Assembly: GCF_014904695.1 (NCBI RefSeq)
Contig: NZ_JACXXN010000010.1
Coordinates: forward strand, 1 to 64,000
Direction: 5' to 3'
DNA from: Nostoc sp. MG11
GTDB lineage: Bacteria > Cyanobacteriota > Cyanobacteriia > Cyanobacteriales > Nostocaceae
DNA: 64,000 bases
A program made the translations under genes and the position numbers. The notes under the pieces are model-generated. The model worked only from the letters and a program-made list of their open reading frames with translations, ran no database searches and was not told the DNA's origin. The first letter of the stretch is position 1. Each line of letters begins with the position of its first letter. Shown piece after piece: positions 57,774 to 64,000 of the stretch.

Positions 57774-58215
57774 TCGATTCCATATTTATTCAGGTTCCCA
57801 GCTATTACTATTGAAGTAGTAACGCTATTTCTAAAGTAGTATTTGTGAAATGTGTTTGAATTCTCCACGAATTCTCCACCATTAAGACTTAACCTCAAAA
57901 TACAGTCTGTTTTTCATAACTCCTTTTTGGGTTGAGCGGCTCAACTTTACCTAAATTACATTTCAAAGATTTAGGTTATTACAAAAATCATAGTCAGATA
58001 TTTGCTCTGAGTATGTATTAGCTCTCAGAGGCTACACTTGCAGTCTCGTTAGATGAAATAACCAACTTCGATAACAACCAAGGTGTATTGAGAATTCAAA
58101 AGGATGGTCAAGTGTTTTTGAATTAGTGTAGTTTTACCGCCGCATTAATTTTGAATACGTTAAAACGTGATTTGAACTTGATATAAATACAGTCAACTTG
58201 AATGGAGATTTTGAA
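57774..58215. other. Gap with a short coding remnant
   Basis: A TCTCCACGAATTCTCCACCA sequence near 57865 recurs in other gaps here. From 58022 to 58126 an open frame without a start encodes SEATLAVSLDEITNFDNNQ and then GVLRIQKDGQVFLN before a stop, probably a relic of an older gene. No terminator is clear. Confidence 0.35.
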
Positions 58216-59019
58216 ATGACCAACTTTCTTCAAACTAAATGGAGTTTTAAAGGGGCTATTACTTTAGCACTTTTTGCAGTGCTGCTTGGAGCTTGTACCA
58301 ACAATTTAGAGCGAGAAGCCGCAGTACCAGAAACCAACGTTACTACAGAGGAAGTCGCAGACAATACAAAGCAACTAATCGGTAAAACTGTAACAGTTAG
58401 AAGTACACCCATCAGAAAACTAGGGCCGTCAACTTTTACAATTAGCGATAAGCAATTTTTTGGCACTGAACCGATTTTAGTTGTGAATGCTTCAGGTAAA
58501 GTTTTTACTCTGCCTACTGATCCAAATACACCAATTCAAGCGACAGGCCCAGTTCGTCAATTTGTGGTTGCAGATATTAATCGAGATTACAATTTGGGCT
58601 TAGATCCAAACTTGTATAAAGAGTATGAAACTCGACCTGCAATTATTGCTCAATCAATTGCACTTGCTCCTAAACCGGGTGAAATTACCACAAACCCCAA
58701 CTTATATTATGGTAAGAACTTGGCGGTAACAGGCGAAGTAGAAGACATTAGAAACGCGAATTCTTTCACTCTAGATGAAGACAAGTTGTTTGGCGGGCAA
58801 GACTTGTTAGTGATACGCGCCGGTACTCCGAAAGCAACTGTCAACGAAGGTGAGAAAGTCGCTGTAACAGGTGTGTTGCGTCCGTTTGTTGTAGCTGAAC
58901 TAGAACGGGATTACGACCTGAAATGGGATTTAACTTTACAAAAGCAGCTAGAAGCAGAATACAGCAATAAACCTGTGTTAGTTGCGAATGAAGTTTACCC
59001 CTCAGCAATTCCGCAATAA
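58216..59019 (+). CDS. Lipoprotein with two repeated OB-like domains
   Basis: A 267-residue lipoprotein. The signal ends in ALFAVLLGACTNN, a clear lipobox. Two homologous parts follow: LIGKTVTVRSTPIRKLGPSTFTISDKQFFGTEPILVVNA (about 55-93) with FVVADINRDYNLGLDP, and YYGKNLAVTGEVEDIRNANSFTLDEDKLFGGQDLLVIRAG (about 165-205) with FVVAELERDYDLKWDL. They look like small beta-barrel (OB-like) domains. GGAG lies 8 bases before the ATG at 58216. The function is unknown; the export and location suggest an envelope stress role. A decayed paralogue follows. Confidence 0.8.
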   Translation: MTNFLQTKWSFKGAITLALFAVLLGACTNNLEREAAVPETNVTTEEVADNTKQLIGKTVTVRSTPIRKLGPSTFTISDKQFFGTEPILVVNASGKVFTLPTDPNTPIQATGPVRQFVVADINRDYNLGLDPNLYKEYETRPAIIAQSIALAPKPGEITTNPNLYYGKNLAVTGEVEDIRNANSFTLDEDKLFGGQDLLVIRAGTPKATVNEGEKVAVTGVLRPFVVAELERDYDLKWDLTLQKQLEAEYSNKPVLVANEVYPSAIPQ

Positions 59020-59109
59020 GGTATCCTACTTACTACAGCATTCCCTAGCAGGAAAGCTTCCTCCGTGAATAGCCTCAAGACAAATAAGAATAAGGGCAAT
59101 AAAAATTCT

Positions 59110-59394
59110 CAAAGGGAGGTTTATACAGGCACTAAATCAGACAGGGGTATTAATTTTTCTGATAGCGATCGCTATGCTAGTGAGAAGTTGTAACCTTTTT
59201 AATACAAAGGCAACTTTCACTAATACATCTGAAGTAGCAATAAATTAGGGTCAGAGAGTATCGGTAATAGGTGAAGTTCGTTTGTTATTACTGAAATTGA
59301 GCAAGACTATAGCTTCACCTGAGATCTAAATAGAAAAAGGAAATTAGAAGCTGAGTACGTCAACAGACCTATTTTAGTTGCTGAAGCCAAATGA
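59110..59394 (+). pseudogene. Decayed paralogue of the lipoprotein gene
   Basis: After a good AAAGGGAGG the sequence encodes a lipoprotein-like signal GVLIFLIAIAMLVRSCNLF, a stop, then GQRVSVIGEVR; after a frame change come FVITEIEQDYSFT, a stop, and DLNRKRKLEAEYVNRPILVAEAK. These parallel GEKVAVTGVLRPFVVAELERDYDLKWDLTLQKQLEAEYSNKPVLVANE in the gene just upstream. It is a tandem duplicate reduced to a single domain and broken by at least one frameshift and two stops. Confidence 0.82.
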
Positions 59395-59695
59395 AAAGTT
59401 TTTGCAGCGTGTCTATATTGTAGTGCTACTGGTAGCCTTACCCATCGCCATTTACCTGTTCTTTGGTGAACCTGTCGGCTTACTACAAACCGCAGGCGCA
59501 ATTGAAGCTGCTCACATCCCCATTGTCACCGGACTGACTCTTTACTTAAATCATCGAATGTTGCCAAAGGAACTGCAACCATCAAAGATGATCTTTGGTG
59601 GAACAGCGATCGCTGATATATTTTTTGGTGTATTTGCAATTATCTATCTGTTGCAACTGCTTGGTATGATTGGCTCAGGTGGCGGTTCAACTTAA
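59378..59695 (+). pseudogene. C-terminal fragment resembling an Nramp-type transporter
   Basis: The 105-residue frame (TTG start directly after a stop) holds three membrane helices: VYIVVLLVALPIAIYLFFG, AAHIPIVTGLTLYLNHRML, and FGGTAIADIFFGVFAIIYLLQLLG. FGEPVGLLQTAGAIEAAHIPIVTGL resembles the last two to three helices of cyanobacterial Nramp-like metal transporters, about 420 aa when whole. It overlaps the lipoprotein pseudogene, so the join is a deletion point. Family assignment is moderate; translation as a short protein remains possible. Confidence 0.5.
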
Positions 59696-59747
59696 TAAAT
59701 ACAGTGTAGAAAGCAGTTTCATTTTTCTAATATAGTTATTATGCCGT

Positions 59748-60599
59748 ATGACACTACCCGATTCACCTCTAGAACCAATTAGGGAACCAGTTAAACAAAT
59801 AACTTCTCTCCCTTGGTTTGAGCGGCTTGCACGATTAGGATACGCCGCAAAAGGTGTCGTTTACTTTATTGTTGGGTTATTAGCAGCCCAAACAGCCATT
59901 GGTTCTGGTGGCAAAACGACGAATACAACTGGTGCGTTAAAGGCAATTGTTGCCCAACCTTTTGGAAAGTTTTTGCTAGGTATCGTTACCCTCGGAATTA
60001 TTGGGTATGTGCTTTGGCGTTTAGTTCAGACGTTTTTCGATCCTGAAAAAAGTGGAAAACAAATTAATGCTAAACGAATTGCCCAACGGATTGGTTATGC
60101 TATCAGTGCTTTAGCTTATACAGGTTTGGCTTTGACATCTGTAAAGCTGATTATGGGTTCAGTCGTTGGTGATAGCGATTCAATTGAGGATTGGACAATA
60201 TATATTTTGGCTCAACCCTTTGGAAGATGGCTAGTAGCACTGGCAGGAATGATGGTAGTTAGTGTTGGTATTTTTTACCTTTATCAAGCATATAAAGGCA
60301 ATTTTCGTTGCCATTTCAAGCTTTCTCAAATGAGTCGAACTAAACAAATTTGGGCAGTGCGTATAGGTAAATTTGGCATTGCTGCCCGTGGCATTGTTTT
60401 TGGCATTATCGGCATTTTCTTGATGCTGGCGGCAGTTCAATCTGATGGCACTCAGGCTAGAGGGTTGGGTGGTGCATTGGCAGTCCTGGCACAACAACCC
60501 TTTGGTGTTTGGCTTCTGGGTATAGTGGCTTTGGGTTTGATTGCTTATGGCATCTATTCAGGAATAGAGGCTCGCTATCGGCATATTGCTAATTTATAA
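59748..60599 (+). CDS. DUF1206 membrane protein
   Basis: A 283-residue integral membrane protein with three DUF1206 repeats, each with two helices. The repeat signature is ARLGYAAKGVVYFIVGLLAAQTA (about 27-49), AQRIGYAISALAYTGLALTSVKL (about 107-129), and KFGIAARGIVFGIIGIFLMLAAV (about 208-230), with a PFGKFLLGIVTLGII / PFGVWLLGIVALGLIAYG pattern. The function is unknown; the family occurs in stress-related loci in cyanobacteria and actinobacteria. Confidence 0.9.
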   Translation: MTLPDSPLEPIREPVKQITSLPWFERLARLGYAAKGVVYFIVGLLAAQTAIGSGGKTTNTTGALKAIVAQPFGKFLLGIVTLGIIGYVLWRLVQTFFDPEKSGKQINAKRIAQRIGYAISALAYTGLALTSVKLIMGSVVGDSDSIEDWTIYILAQPFGRWLVALAGMMVVSVGIFYLYQAYKGNFRCHFKLSQMSRTKQIWAVRIGKFGIAARGIVFGIIGIFLMLAAVQSDGTQARGLGGALAVLAQQPFGVWLLGIVALGLIAYGIYSGIEARYRHIANL

Positions 60600-60639
60600 T
60601 TTTTAACGCGTTGGCGTAGCCCGTCGTAGAATCGCTAAT

Positions 60640-60990
60640 TTTTGCTGCATTTGTGACAACCAAGATGATGGTAAAACATTTGTATATCGAGATTTACCAC
60701 CAGAGGAATTGCACGTTCCATTAACACAGGTAATTTATGTTGGTGATGGTGAGTCAGATATTCCCTGCTTTTCTCTAATGAATCAAGAACAGGGTACAGC
60801 GATCGCATTATATAAAGACAGCACTCCAGAAGAATGGGGACGAAAGTTAAAAATTACTCAAAATCAACGGGTTGCTAACCTCGCGCCTGTTGACTACAGC
60901 GAAAATTCTGAACTGATGCAATCTCTAACACTGGCGGTAGAAGGTCTCTGCAAACGGATTGCTTTGCAGCAATTGAGCGTAGGTGAGTAG
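60640..60990 (+). pseudogene. C-terminal fragment of a HAD-family phosphatase
   Basis: An open frame without a start codon reads CDNQDDGKTFVYRDLPPEELHV, then VIYVGDGESDIPCFSLMNQEQGTAIALYKDST, which has the HAD motif IV (GDGESD) and later helices. HAD motifs I-III (the DxD nucleophile) are absent, so about two thirds of the gene is gone. A palindromic GTTGGCGTAGCCCG repeat sits just upstream at the break. Confidence 0.7.
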
Positions 60991-61065
60991 AACTGCTAAA
61001 AAAAATGCACAGTAAGCTTGCCAAAGCAACCACTCTCAAAAACTTTAGTCAGAATCAAAAATAAC

Positions 61066-61173
61066 GGCGGGTGCGGGGGTTGAACCCGCAAATCCCCAAA
61101 ATAGTGGAGATGTTACCGATAACCCTAAATTCCTCGTCCCCGAAAGGCAAGTTGCGAATCAGGATAACCCGCC
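61066..61173 (-). ncRNA. Y RNA-like RNA 1 (YrlA-type), downstream of rsr
   Basis: A 108-nt RNA read on the minus strand. Acceptor-like ends GGCGGGT / ACCCGCC pair over 7 bp, and the 3' side has a full T-arm (GCGGG-TTCAACC-CCCGC). In place of D- and anticodon arms it has the Y-type hairpin (AACTTGCCT-TTCG-GGGACGAGG, then AATTTAGGGTTATCGG; 61117-61136 on plus) and a second stem ATCTCC / GGGGAT. It lies about 50 bp downstream of the rsr stop on the same strand and is probably co-transcribed. Cyanobacterial tRNA is excluded by the missing D-arm and anticodon arm. Confidence 0.8.
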
Positions 61174-61221
61174 ATAAACTATGAAGGATAAAGTTTTTCA
61201 TGCTTTATCCTTCAGCAATGT

Positions 61222-62823
61222 CTACAACTCACCCGTAGCTAGCATTTGGATAATGCGAGGCGTTCCCGGATCAAACCCCCCCAAATCCCAAGACAGCGAA
61301 TCTTGAGGATCTACCAGCGTAATCTGATAAGGTGCAAGGGTGACATACACCGCCTTGACATTGGGATTCACCTTTTTGCGGTACTCTGCCAGTGCTTGAC
61401 TTGGATGCTTATAACCAGCCCAGCTTTCTGAGTCAGTCCAAAAACAGACTACATCTGCCTTGAACTTGTTTTTAATCATCCAGTCGTAAGCCACAGACGC
61501 ATCTGTTCCGCCGAAGTTTTGGTTGCTAGCTTTGCGAACCGCTGAACTAAAACTATCTTTAGCAGTGATACCCAATTCACGAAATTCGGTAGCAAAGCCG
61601 CGAATCACATAGTTTTGTTCTGCCTTTGCTGTAACCAGTGCCATTGTGGTGGCAATTTCACAACAACTTAATCCCATATCTGCAACCAAGCTACCCATAG
61701 AACCAGAAACATCCACAGCGTGCATGAACACTTTGCCTGTGGGTTGCACAACATCAAAAGACAGTTCAACCGCCTTTTCTAAGACGTCCACAATGCGAGG
61801 AACTGGGTTCCAAGTCTTCTGGCTGCGTCCTAATCTTCCCCCAGATTGGTAAGTTTTGAGTGCCTTCAAAACATCAATCGGATGGATACGACCTTTACGC
61901 AGATGTTCCTTATTGTTAAGAACTGCTTCCACGCGCAGTAAATTTGTGCTCTCATCGGCTCGCAACACACCTAAGTCTGTCAGTGAACCCAGGTTTCGCA
62001 ACATTGCACCTATTGGCATTTCCTGAAACAGCAGTTGCCAAGCTTGCTTATCCATTTTGCCCACAGGTGCAGCCATTTCGTGGGTTAGGCGTCCTTGTGA
62101 AATAGCCTCATGAGTTTGGGTAGGATTCCGCTTGAGCCACTCATACCACCAAATCTGAGCCAATGCTTGAGAGGGTATTTCTGCTGGCAATTCTTCCCAG
62201 CCTTTGACTACCCACTCAAATAATTGTCGGTGATTTTCTGTAGGTGGTTTGACATGGAACAACCGCAATGCATCCCGGTGGGAAAAGCCTTGACGTTGTT
62301 GATATTTCAATAGCTGATAAGCCAAACCCTTAACATCTTCCCGTGACAGCCAAGTTTTACCAGCTTCGCGCACCACTTTCCCAAATCCCCGCAGAGATTT
62401 AGTGTAGTTCAGCCATTCATAGAAGTGGCTACCAGTGCGGACAACTTGCGGAAAGATTTCACCAAATGCCTGCTTTGCTTCTGGTGTTTCACCCATTGAC
62501 AGTAGAACTAAAGCTAAGATTGGCGCACTGTTGTTGATGGCGCGTCCATCGCTAGCATACAAAATTTCTTCCGCTACACGGCTAGGATTTTCGGCAACAG
62601 CTTGTCTGATAACTGTCACAAAATCCTCAGTTAATTCTTGCTTCCCAGCATAGTAAGTACTTTTTGCTGTACCAATCAATAGACAGCGACGCAGCATTTT
62701 CCAAATGCCAGCATCAAACATCCAGCCACCGGAACGCCCCTGAATCATCTCTGCTTCTCGTCCGTGGATAGGCTGAGACTGTGGTGTAGCTGTCTTCTTT
62801 TTAGTGAAAAAATTGTAATTCAT
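61222..62823 (-). CDS. rsr: Ro60/Rsr RNA-binding protein (TROVE + vWA)
   Basis: The bacterial Ro60 orthologue (533 aa), which binds Y RNAs and, with exoribonucleases, takes part in RNA quality control, rRNA maturation and stress survival. The TROVE ring (about 30-350) shows GRSGGWMFDAGIWKMLRRCLLIG near 29-51, KSLRGFGKVVREAG, AYQLLKYQQRQGFSHRDALRLFHVKP, MPIGAMLRNLGSLTDLGVL, and GRIHPIDVLKALKTYQSG. The C-terminal vWA domain has the MIDAS HAVDVSGSMGSLVAD (near 368-382), GGTDASVAYDWM and FWTDSESW. Five Y RNA-like genes lie on its strand, four before and one after it. A Y-type hairpin covers the ribosome binding site region. Confidence 0.97.
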   Translation of the reverse strand: MNYNFFTKKKTATPQSQPIHGREAEMIQGRSGGWMFDAGIWKMLRRCLLIGTAKSTYYAGKQELTEDFVTVIRQAVAENPSRVAEEILYASDGRAINNSAPILALVLLSMGETPEAKQAFGEIFPQVVRTGSHFYEWLNYTKSLRGFGKVVREAGKTWLSREDVKGLAYQLLKYQQRQGFSHRDALRLFHVKPPTENHRQLFEWVVKGWEELPAEIPSQALAQIWWYEWLKRNPTQTHEAISQGRLTHEMAAPVGKMDKQAWQLLFQEMPIGAMLRNLGSLTDLGVLRADESTNLLRVEAVLNNKEHLRKGRIHPIDVLKALKTYQSGGRLGRSQKTWNPVPRIVDVLEKAVELSFDVVQPTGKVFMHAVDVSGSMGSLVADMGLSCCEIATTMALVTAKAEQNYVIRGFATEFRELGITAKDSFSSAVRKASNQNFGGTDASVAYDWMIKNKFKADVVCFWTDSESWAGYKHPSQALAEYRKKVNPNVKAVYVTLAPYQITLVDPQDSLSWDLGGFDPGTPRIIQMLATGEL

Positions 62824-62835
62824 GGCTTCATCTCC

Positions 62836-62851
62836 CGGCCCTTGTGGGCAA
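62836..62851 (-). promoter_or_regulatory. Y-type hairpin in the rsr 5' leader
   Basis: On the minus strand TTTGCCCACAAGGGCCGG sits about 15 bases before the rsr ATG and overlaps the GGGAG ribosome binding site area. GCCC / GGGC pair around an ACAA loop (62838-62849), the same TTG-GCCC-ACAA-GGGC-CG unit as in the Y RNA-like gene at 63421-63551. Ro binding here could repress rsr translation; this is inference. Confidence 0.6.
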
Positions 62852-62860
62852 AAATGAAAG

Positions 62861-62987
62861 GTGGCAGGGCAGGACTTGAACCTGCGACAACCGGCTTAAA
62901 AGGCGATAACCCTAATTCGTCGGCCTTTTCAGACAAGGTGTGAACAAGGATGTTTTCGGCGCTCTACCACTGAGCTACCTGCCACAT
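62861..62987 (-). ncRNA. tRNA-like Y RNA 2
   Basis: 127 nt on the minus strand. Acceptor GTGGCAG / CTGCCAC, D-arm GTAGCTCAGTGGTAGAGC, T-arm GCAGG-TTCAAGT-CCTGC. Between D-arm and the 3' anticodon side lies a Y-type module: TCCTTGTTC, CACCTTG, stem GTCT-GAAA-AGGC, CGAC, GAATTAGGGTTATCG. The strand after it (CTTTTAAGCCGG) looks like a former Lys-type anticodon loop, but the 5' half no longer pairs normally. Position is directly upstream of rsr. Confidence 0.82.
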
Positions 62988-62999
62988 ATAAATTTTGGT

Positions 63000-63122
63000 G
63001 TAGTGGGGCGGGATTTGAACCCGCGACCTCTCGAACCCAATCGATAACCCTCAATTCTTCGGCCTTTTCAGGCAAGGAGTGAACAAGGATGTTTAGCGCT
63101 CTACCACTGAGCTACCCACCAC
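63000..63122 (-). ncRNA. tRNA-like Y RNA 3 (encoded CCA)
   Basis: 123 nt, minus strand. Acceptor GTGGTGG / CCACTAC (one G-U), D-arm as in the copy at 62861, T-arm GCGGG-TTCAAAT-CCCGC, then A-CCA encoded at the 3' end. The insert reads TCCTTGTTC, CTCCTTG, perfect stem GCCT-GAAA-AGGC, CGAAG, AATTGAGGGTTATCG, and joins TTGGGTTCGAGAGGTCG on the 3' side. The left boundary is uncertain by a base or two. Confidence 0.82.
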
Positions 63123-63181
63123 ATGAAAATTACAAATTACAAATTCAAAACTAAACTCCAGTACTCAAAAGCAATTTGGGT

Positions 63182-63318
63182 GTGGCAGGGTAGGAATCGA
63201 ACCTACACGACTTTTTCAGTCACTAGATCCCGATAATCCTCAAATCTTCGGTCTTTGCAGACAAGGTGCGAATCAAGGTTTTTCATCTAGCGCGTCTACC
63301 AATTTCGCCACCTACCAC
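63182..63318 (-). ncRNA. tRNA-like Y RNA 4 on a tRNA-Leu body
   Basis: 137 nt, minus strand. It has a class II tRNA-Leu look: acceptor GTGGTAG / CTGCCAC, D-arm TGGCGAAATTGGTAGACGC, anticodon stem CTAGA / TCTAG (perfect 5 bp), long variable arm GACTGAAAAAGTC, T-arm GTAGG-TTCGATT-CCTAC. The anticodon loop is replaced by the Y-type module: CCTTGATTC, CACCTTG, stem GTCT-GCAA-AGAC, CGAAG, ATTTGAGGATTATCG. No CCA is encoded (ACCC). It cannot decode, because there is no anticodon. Confidence 0.85.
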
Positions 63319-63420
63319 ATATAAAATTTTGGATTCTAGACTTAAGTTTCGTTTAAGGGTTTTTACTAGTATTTTCGTAAAGAATTATCAGGTTTAAATT
63401 TACTCGGTGCTTAATTTGGT

Positions 63421-63551
63421 GTAGCGGAGCAGGATTTTTACCTGCACCTCCAGAAGTTTGGATCAAGGGTGTTTTAGTTATGTGCGATAACCCTCGATAT
63501 ATCGGCCCTTGTGGGCAAGGTGGGCGCTCTATCATTTGAGCTATCCGCTAC
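63421..63551 (-). ncRNA. tRNA-like Y RNA 5, rearranged (encoded CCA)
   Basis: 131 nt, minus strand. Acceptor GTAGCGG / CCGCTAC is a perfect 7 bp, followed by A-CCA. D-arm is ATAGCTCAAATGATAGAGC. The Y-type module follows at once: CACCTTG, stem GCCC-ACAA-GGGC, CGATAT, ATCGAGGGTTATCG. Here the lower stem pairs with a downstream strand (ATCGAGGGT with ACCCTTGAT, 9 bp) rather than an upstream one. The T-arm GCAGG / CCTGC has a degenerate loop TAAAAAT. It looks the most diverged of the set. Confidence 0.75.
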
Positions 63552-63808
63552 GGGTGAAAGCTAACTCCTTAATGAATGTCAGCTTGTATTATTAATGTAG
63601 TATTTATATTACTAGTTGTCAAGTGGCTGGCGAGCTAATTTGTCTGCCTTCGGTGTTAGGTAGTAGGCAGAGAGAGCACAAAGAATTCTTAGGGCAAAAG
63701 GTTTTAGATTCCAAGCTTTCCTCAAAACCTTCTTGTTTCTTTAGGAAAAAACTTTTGCGCGATCGCCAACCGATAACATATACAGTTGGTTTTTATGAAT
63801 AGACAACA

Positions 63809-63838
63809 GTAGGGTGGGCATTACAATGCCCACCCTAC
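63809..63838. repeat. Palindromic repeat / hairpin
   Basis: GTAGGGTGGGCATT and AATGCCCACCCTAC form a 14-bp perfect inverted repeat around ACA... with a 2-base loop. A half copy is at 46537-46556. It is a common Nostocales dispersed repeat and could act as a terminator. Confidence 0.7.
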
Positions 63839-63930
63839 AAGCTGCTTTGGGAAAAAACTTTTGCCCAGACACTGGTTTTTGCTAGCAAATTTGCTACAAC
63901 TTTGCCAAACGATACAAAAAAATGCCACAA

Positions 63931-64000
63931 TTTTTGCCAAGATAATATTATTTCCAGAAAATTCACTTGGCAAAAATCGGCATGAGTGAAAAACTAATCG
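63931..64000 (+). promoter_or_regulatory. Inverted repeat before a possible gene start at the right edge
   Basis: An 11-bp perfect inverted repeat TTTTTGCCAAG (63931-63941) and CTTGGCAAAAA (63966-63976), with a third TTTGCCAA at 63901, lies 5 bases before an ATG at 63982 (MSEKLI...) that runs off the window. It could be an operator for that gene or a stem-loop. The gene cannot be named from six codons. Confidence 0.4.

Follow-up and report, generated by a model that had tools for sequence, protein, structure and literature searches.

Along a stretch of 64,000 nucleotides (nt) from Nostoc sp. MG11 (the window), the gene rsr, which encodes an orthologue of the ring-shaped RNA-binding protein Ro60, is flanked by five elements shaped like transfer RNA (tRNA). 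From their sequence and predicted folds these are probably Y RNAs built on unpermuted tRNA bodies, each of which would be held by Ro60 through a hairpin that occupies the anticodon slot in four elements and the D-arm slot in one. All five lie on the rsr strand (minus). A sequence-only reading of the window had proposed five such minus-strand elements around the gene, and their coordinates held on rechecking: covariance model R1, built from the loci of 80 named relatives, finds four of them (58.7 to 73.4 bits) and model R2 finds the last, E5. Two features go beyond that reading: the elements are colinear with tRNA, whereas the bacterial Y RNA YrlA is permuted, and rsr has a hairpin in its leader.

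Five elements around rsr

The gene rsr (61222..62823, minus strand) is intact and encodes a full-length protein of 533 amino acids with vWA_Ro60 (PF25045, 7.9e-36) and TROVE (PF05731, 2.8e-18) domains; a TROVE search of the genome found no other gene. The best PDB match of its product is Deinococcus radiodurans Rsr (2nvo, 1.4e-73), and Xenopus Ro60 (1yvp) is matched at 2.8e-71. K, R and H stand at the positions aligned with Xenopus K170, R174 and H187, which presumably have a role in RNA binding.

Elements E2 to E5 lie upstream of rsr and E1 lies downstream. E3 (63000..63122; R1 73.4 bits) is of type A, with an acceptor of 8 base pairs (bp), a D-arm, a Ro module replacing the anticodon arm, and a T-arm. 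E2 (62861..62985; R1 66.7 bits) is of the same type, and both belong to RNAalifold set A4. E4 (63182..63318) is a type A element on a class II body, with its module (R1 58.7 bits at 63231-63280) between the flanks CTAGAT and ATCTAG; the body was assigned from sequence, and by eye it has a long variable arm and is Leu-like. E5 (63421..63551; RNAalifold set A6) is of type B, with an 8-bp acceptor, a D-arm, the lower hairpin of the Ro module, an upper helix closed by a downstream strand, and a T-arm; it scores 89.5 bits with R2 (E 1.4e-24) and only 24.8 bits with R1. E1 (61066..61173; R1 61.7 bits; RNAalifold set A5) is of type C, with a 7-bp acceptor, the module in the D-arm slot, a hairpin lacking an anticodon, and a T-arm.

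Types A and B thus carry the D-, T- and acceptor arms of a tRNA-like domain, and type C is without the D-arm. No element in the window combines an anticodon arm with detection as a tRNA: ARAGORN called no tRNA in the whole 64 kb, and the Rfam tRNA model, run over positions 58000-64000, matched E3 alone of the five (45.3 bits), with the module as a long insertion. Compared with tRNAs of the same genome, the bodies of E2 and E3 scored 26.0 (shuffle maximum 6.0) and 25.5 (10.0; a few module bases remained in E3 after cutting), that of E4 scored weakly (8.0 against 4.5) and that of E1 scored 5.0, under its shuffle maximum of 6.0. The tRNA set consisted of 36 ARAGORN rows, some duplicated, from 30 loci for 44 tRNA matches, and included no Leu tRNA. 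Because of these restrictions and the imperfect cut of E3, no parent tRNA can be named.

A covarying Ro site in related loci

Relatives were taken as the best 80 of 169 rsr loci found by a protein genome scan. Most are from Nostoc and close kin, with Calothrix, Brasilonema, Chlorogloea, Gloeocapsa, Prochloron and others also represented. This survey of rsr neighbourhoods, one of the checks that the sequence-only reading had put forward, revealed similar clusters flanking the gene. In the 873 kb of these loci all 326 copies of the anchor AGGRTTATC are on the rsr strand and none is on the opposite one; 296 of them fall between 1.5 kb upstream and 0.5 kb downstream of rsr. A further 24 anchors, 1.5 to 3 kb upstream, resemble one conserved sequence that is probably coding and were excluded from the kept set. 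A T-arm and acceptor could be parsed for 262 of the 296 kept anchors (a few by chance fit), and a tRNA-shape parser score of at least 24 was reached by 250 of them, against two for 296 random anchors and none when the flanks of all 296 were shuffled. At least one parsed element is present in 79 of the 80 loci.

The module has the consensus AUCCUU-UUC ... CUUG-CCU-GNAA-AGG-C-CGA-AGAAUUGAGGGUUAUCG. CCU and AGG pair in a lower stem, one nucleotide (mostly C or A) is bulged and CUUG lies opposite CGA; above this pairing come a bulge on the opposite strand and a ten-pair upper helix ending GGGUUAUC. In alignment A1 the pairs U20-A37, U21-G36 and G22-C35 are formed while column 34, mostly C or A, is unpaired, and 98.1% of the cells of helix 2 are paired. 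The modules therefore have the Ro-binding stem of YrlA, with its bulged C and CUUG/CGA pairing. Over 113 modules 93.0% of cells are paired and all five measures lie above all 500 shuffles; the covariation score is 0.245 against 0.188 in shuffles, reached by none of the 500. Among 33 type B modules 92.7% of cells are paired, and three of the five measures lie above all shuffles.

The geometry resembles that of the vertebrate Ro site, a helix with a single bulged C and a 3-nt bulge on the opposite strand (PMC4726728), with a larger opposite bulge in the window modules. Vertebrate Y RNAs differ in having no tRNA body, and no vertebrate Y family of Rfam matched positions 58000-64000 at E ≤ 1.

Small repeats interrupt some copies, either at the T-loop (ACCCTACGGGAAGCAAGCTAC or a variant of it) or within the lower stem of the Ro module. 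They are found in elements of L039, L056, L057 and L064 and in the type C elements of L033, L055, L081 and L100.

One Ro site in three connectivities

The Ro site is placed in the anticodon slot (type A), in the same slot with the strands of the upper helix in the other order (type B), or in the D-arm slot (type C). RNAalifold, supplied with no structure, recovers tRNA-type stems and the Ro hairpin with compensatory changes. For type A (33 sequences) it gives an 8-bp acceptor, a D-arm, a bulged Ro stem and a T-arm, with 16 of 27 pairs compensatory; for type B (17 sequences) an 8-bp acceptor, a D-arm, the lower Ro hairpin and a T-arm (10 of 29), the upper helix being closed by a downstream strand; and for type C (16 sequences) an acceptor, the module in the D-arm slot, an extra hairpin and a T-arm (8 of 32). 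By a heuristic rule the 80 loci contain 188 type A, 59 type B and 49 type C elements. Type B is present in 51 loci, in 46 of them as the 5'-most element, and type C, a class defined by its position downstream of rsr, in 49. The order of the paralogues around the gene is mostly fixed.

Among 183 D-arm elements scoring at least 22, position -1 pairs with position 73 in 174 (G:C in 160), and CACCA is encoded at that end in 62. An encoded CCA after position 73 was found in none of the 36 ARAGORN rows of own-genome tRNAs, some of them duplicated.

These structures refine the sequence-only reading. It had given all the elements 7-bp acceptor-like ends, which is right for E1; the other four have 8 bp, with G-1:C73 added. 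Its placement of the module in place of the anticodon applies to four elements and fails for E1, where the D-arm slot holds the module, with a separate short hairpin after it. In E5 the upper helix is formed with a strand that lies downstream of the module. The same reading had suggested separate roles for the paralogues; such roles are conceivable, with only their conserved positions and three architectures in favour.

By eye, L019:2540-2677 and an element near position 1432 of L020 (minus strand) carry the module inside the D-loop and retain an anticodon-like arm. The retained loops read GTCAAAT or GTCAAAA (CAA, Leu-like), and this is a fourth module placement.

Topology relative to YrlA

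The bacterial Y RNA 6CU1, from Salmonella YrlA (PMC8394870), is described as circularly permuted relative to tRNA (PMC11472068). YrlA (RF02553; Salmonella and others) shares with the window elements the CUUG/CGA Ro stem, T-arm, acceptor and D-arm in the same cyclic order, and is likewise encoded beside rsr. The linear order, however, is rotated. The window elements keep the tRNA order acceptor-D-Ro-T-acceptor, with open acceptor ends and a Ro stem closed by a short loop; on their predicted ends they do not have the permuted layout of YrlA, in which the RNA ends at the Ro stem and the acceptor is closed by a loop.

In covariance searches, a check that the sequence-only reading had called for, the new models R1 and R2 find the elements, and the Rfam YrlA model gives two weak matches in positions 58000-64000 (28.9 and 27.9 bits), under its gathering score of 69. 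These matches straddle the junctions E2/E3 and E3/E4, as is expected of tandem unpermuted copies of a permuted RNA. Conventional YrlA-type matches elsewhere (36-52 bits) likewise remain under 69.

Sixty type A elements, picked at random after a score filter, were rotated against four YrlA-type references (Gordonia phage Forza, Nonomuraea and two genomes of the same phylum; Rfam E 7e-9 to 7e-5). For the four references the best rotation lay no more than 20 nt from the Ro tetraloop in 60, 44, 60 and 56 of the 60 elements, and the mean best score, a maximum over rotations, was 46-73 against 5-18 unrotated. Since about one third of cuts would be expected at this position by chance, the gain in score and the match of letters weigh more than the position of the cut. 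Rotated E3 and the YrlA of phage Forza match nearly letter by letter in the tRNA-like part, having in common TTATCGA-TTGGG-TCGAGAGGT-GCGGGTTCAAATCCCG and GTAGCTCA--TGGTAGAGCGCTAAA.

Co-occurrence with rsr

In 291 genomes of the order, an rsr match is present in 72 and an R1 module in 69. The module is found in 68 of the 72 genomes with rsr, compared with one of the 219 without. The sensitivity of R1 is not independent because some training loci are likely to come from the same species as scanned genomes; the absence of modules from genomes without rsr is an independent test. Of the four rsr genomes in which no module was found, three (G094, G042, G160) carry rsr fragments and the fourth is G246. 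G084 is the only genome with an R1 module and no rsr. It has no TROVE match, and by eye its copies are broken, a type B element being split by an insertion and a type A element having no T-arm. R2 detects type B in 54 genomes, 51 with rsr and three without (G084, G181, G243). In G181 the module has no tRNA arms (L176 1230-1480; the region upstream is cluster-like), and the copy in G243, an incomplete genome, is truncated and close to a contig end.

The elements are therefore encoded near rsr, and the family that the sequence-only reading had proposed, tRNA-shaped Y-type RNAs tied to this gene, is upheld: presence tracks rsr, the Ro geometry covaries and the order is mostly fixed. That reading would have given way to a family spread far from rsr; a search for this was made, and the modules concentrate near the gene.

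On plasmid pAQ7 of Picosynechococcus sp. PCC 7002 the models match two elements, one of type A and the other of type B, and a third was read from a tRNA match. R1/R2 matches are also present in L150 and L151 (same class, outside the order). At E ≤ 0.01 neither model matched any of eleven rsr loci of other groups (L154-L157, L160, L163-L168); R1 has one match at E 0.15, in L167. Four of these eleven have full-length and two have partial Rfam YrlA matches. One exact form of the module, used as a pattern against viral contigs, gave no match.

Several single loci are unusual. An orphan in G169, far from rsr (L169 1500-1690, minus strand), is a compact tRNA-like sequence to which the Ro module is attached as 3' tail, with a terminator-like hairpin after it. 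In L155 (3203-3408, minus strand), near a divergent rsr, the nematode Y-like family ceN72-3_ceN74-2 of Rfam is matched twice, at 37.4 and 31.3 bits, both under the cut-off of 38. A divergent rsr also lies beside long tRNA arrays in L157 (G246), L154 and L165, which include the window's own family and a phage. Its position next to tRNA arrays both in the genome of G246 and in a phage suggests a different, possibly phage-borne, rsr lineage. In L168 an rsr on an Allomeiothermus plasmid is followed by a gene for an RNB-domain ribonuclease.

The rsr leader and candidate promoter

Ahead of rsr is a leader hairpin (62826..62859, minus strand) corresponding to the lower half of the Ro module, UUUUG-CCC-ACAA-GGG-C-CG, with a GGGAG ribosome-binding site in its 3' strand. 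It begins two bases after E2, and exactly 37 nt separate the end of the last parsed element from rsr in 46 of 77 loci. The general pattern before the start codon, UUUUG-CC(Y)-N4-(R)GG-C-YG-GGAG with the bulge included, occurs in its strict form in 79 of the 80 loci, compared with 19 in 8000 random windows and 4 among 4000 shuffled leaders, and in its loose form in all 80. Among 12 further loci inspected, of which L152, L161 and L162 are near-duplicates, nine fit a slightly looser pattern, two more do so by eye with a shorter loop, and L149 has no such hairpin. In 50 of the 61 distinct leaders 81.9% of cells are paired; paired cells, cells changed on both sides and the covariation score lie above all shuffles. 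Only UUG-C and GG are invariant, and the outer stem varies. This conserved hairpin covers the ribosome-binding site and resembles the Ro site, which suggests that Ro60 may repress rsr through its own leader.

The candidate promoter of the cluster, TTGACA-17-TACATT (63594..63622, minus strand), is the lone sigma-70-like site in 60990-63760, a region whose shuffles give a mean of 4.0. A TTGAC-type promoter pattern precedes the 5'-most element in 42 of 75 loci, compared with 43 of 1500 random windows, and precedes later elements in one of 132.

Alternative explanations

It is quite unlikely that the elements are ordinary YrlA, the tRNA order being a misread start in a tandem array in which each RNA runs from one Ro 5' strand to the next Ro 3' strand. 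The full-length Rfam YrlA matches across E2/E3 and E3/E4, and those in L161 (31.0 bits) and L152 (31.7 bits), would be explained in this way, but the junction matches are far under the gathering score. Elements at the ends of clusters (type B where it is 5'-most, type C alone downstream) fold complete and unpermuted, the 8-bp acceptors covary within elements, and the 131 spacers between elements, 7 to 399 nt long, are 69% A+T against 58% for the loci. Still less probable is that these are tRNA genes with group I introns, as reported for tRNA-Gly of Nostoc sp. PCC 7107 and tRNA-Lys of Gloeocapsa sp. PCC 73106 (PMC5733544). The intron motifs listed in that source (TTxxC, CTTGxCT, AAGxC, GAAGAAT, GG) are carried in order by 16 of 194 distinct modules, and two of its three inserts share ordered motifs with the modules; the third, from Nostoc sp. 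PCC 7524, is described there as having no conserved sequence in common with the other two. The insert here is only about 50 nt, however, and no intron core was recognised, as no Rfam intron family matched positions 58000-64000 at E ≤ 1. Splicing at an anticodon loop would be impossible for types B and C, the occurrence of the elements goes with that of rsr, and ARAGORN calls no tRNA in the window. The shared motifs suggest that the two published introns (PCC 7107 and PCC 73106) may themselves be mis-annotated Y RNAs of this family.

An equally improbable account is that decaying tRNA-like repeats or mobile elements have collected near rsr by chance. The small repeats inserted in some copies and the few modules away from rsr would fit it, but all 326 anchors are on the rsr strand, the order near the gene is mostly fixed, pairs covary and the copies in G084, without rsr, are broken. 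Plain YrlA, intron-bearing tRNAs and mobile repeats were all rejected or downgraded. A much stronger contender, though it falls somewhat short of an even chance, accepts the Y RNAs as described here and takes the leader hairpin to be a thermometer at the ribosome-binding site or a processing signal, unrelated to Ro60. In favour of this, the ribosome-binding site lies within the extended stem, whose outer part differs in sequence between leaders; against it, UUG-C...GG stays invariant, and either C or A is bulged, just as in the Y modules.

Other observations count against the interpretation as Ro60-bound Y RNAs derived from unpermuted tRNA bodies, or against parts of it. The YrlA references used for rotation score 52.1 (the phage sequence), 51, 47.6 and 38.4, all under the Rfam cut-off of 69. 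Shuffled references place the cut near the tetraloop in 8, 19, 16 and 4 of 40 cases. The span of 20 nt on either side makes up about one third of an element, and taking the best score means taking a maximum over rotations. Gathering modules by exact AGGRTTATC makes the anchor invariant by construction. In type B two of the five measures are reached by 129 and 20 of 500 shuffles, the former being pairs changed on both sides. In the leader, pairs changed on both sides are reached by 469 and further pair types by 301 of 500 shuffles, and it is by resemblance alone that Ro60 may be expected to bind there. No element was recognised in G246, whose rsr is distant (32% identity), or in locus L088. Modules lie away from rsr, or in genomes without it, in G169, G181, G084 and G243, and on other contigs in fragmented assemblies such as G178 and G259.

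Proposed mode of action

On the simplest reading, a single transcript would begin upstream of E5. Enzymes that process tRNA ends could excise the RNAs, leaving the 5' end of the rsr messenger RNA (mRNA) at the base of the leader hairpin. Ro60 would bind each Y RNA by its hairpin, so that the tRNA elbow and acceptor stay free as a handle. This handle could recruit tRNA-binding enzymes or, by analogy with D. radiodurans, PNPase, and several bodies per genome would provide several handles. The D. radiodurans Y RNA, likened here by description, is a partner of Rsr and a tether for PNPase (PMC8394870, PMC7790460).

The lack of an anticodon and the 8-bp acceptor may keep the RNAs out of translation. 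Bodies of tRNA are also diverted from normal decoding in tRNA-Sec, which in bacteria has an 8-bp acceptor, and in tmRNA; window types A and B differ from these in carrying a Ro module and no anticodon. By binding the Y-like hairpin of its own leader, free Ro60 may block the ribosome-binding site. The leader would then sense free Y RNA, and the supply of Y RNA would set the supply of Ro60.

Implications

Taken together, these results lead to a broader proposal: cyanobacteria hold families of unpermuted Y RNAs of three connectivities, tandem copies could have given rise to permuted YrlA by shifted ends, and Ro60 gauges Y RNA through a hairpin of its own mRNA. As a whole it is offered tentatively, with a chance only just short of even. 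Judged by sequence, unpermuted tRNA-shaped elements would be a new form of Ro60 partner RNA. Titles and abstracts of the literature yielded no report of a cyanobacterial Y RNA, although an earlier mention in primary Y RNA papers is possible; the passages on Y RNAs in related papers, as far as these were available, concern D. radiodurans and Salmonella.

The resemblance of YrlA to tRNA is prominent in a survey of RNA structures, in which 81 of 99 fold pairs with permuted sequence are 6CU1 superposed on tRNAs (PMC11472068). An unpermuted relative that accompanies rsr in about a quarter of the sampled order (68 of 291 genomes), often in tandem, would offer a concrete route from tRNA to YrlA. The same Ro site in three backbone connectivities would be a natural experiment on what Ro60 requires, and Picosynechococcus sp. 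PCC 7002, with pAQ7, is a tractable strain bearing such elements.

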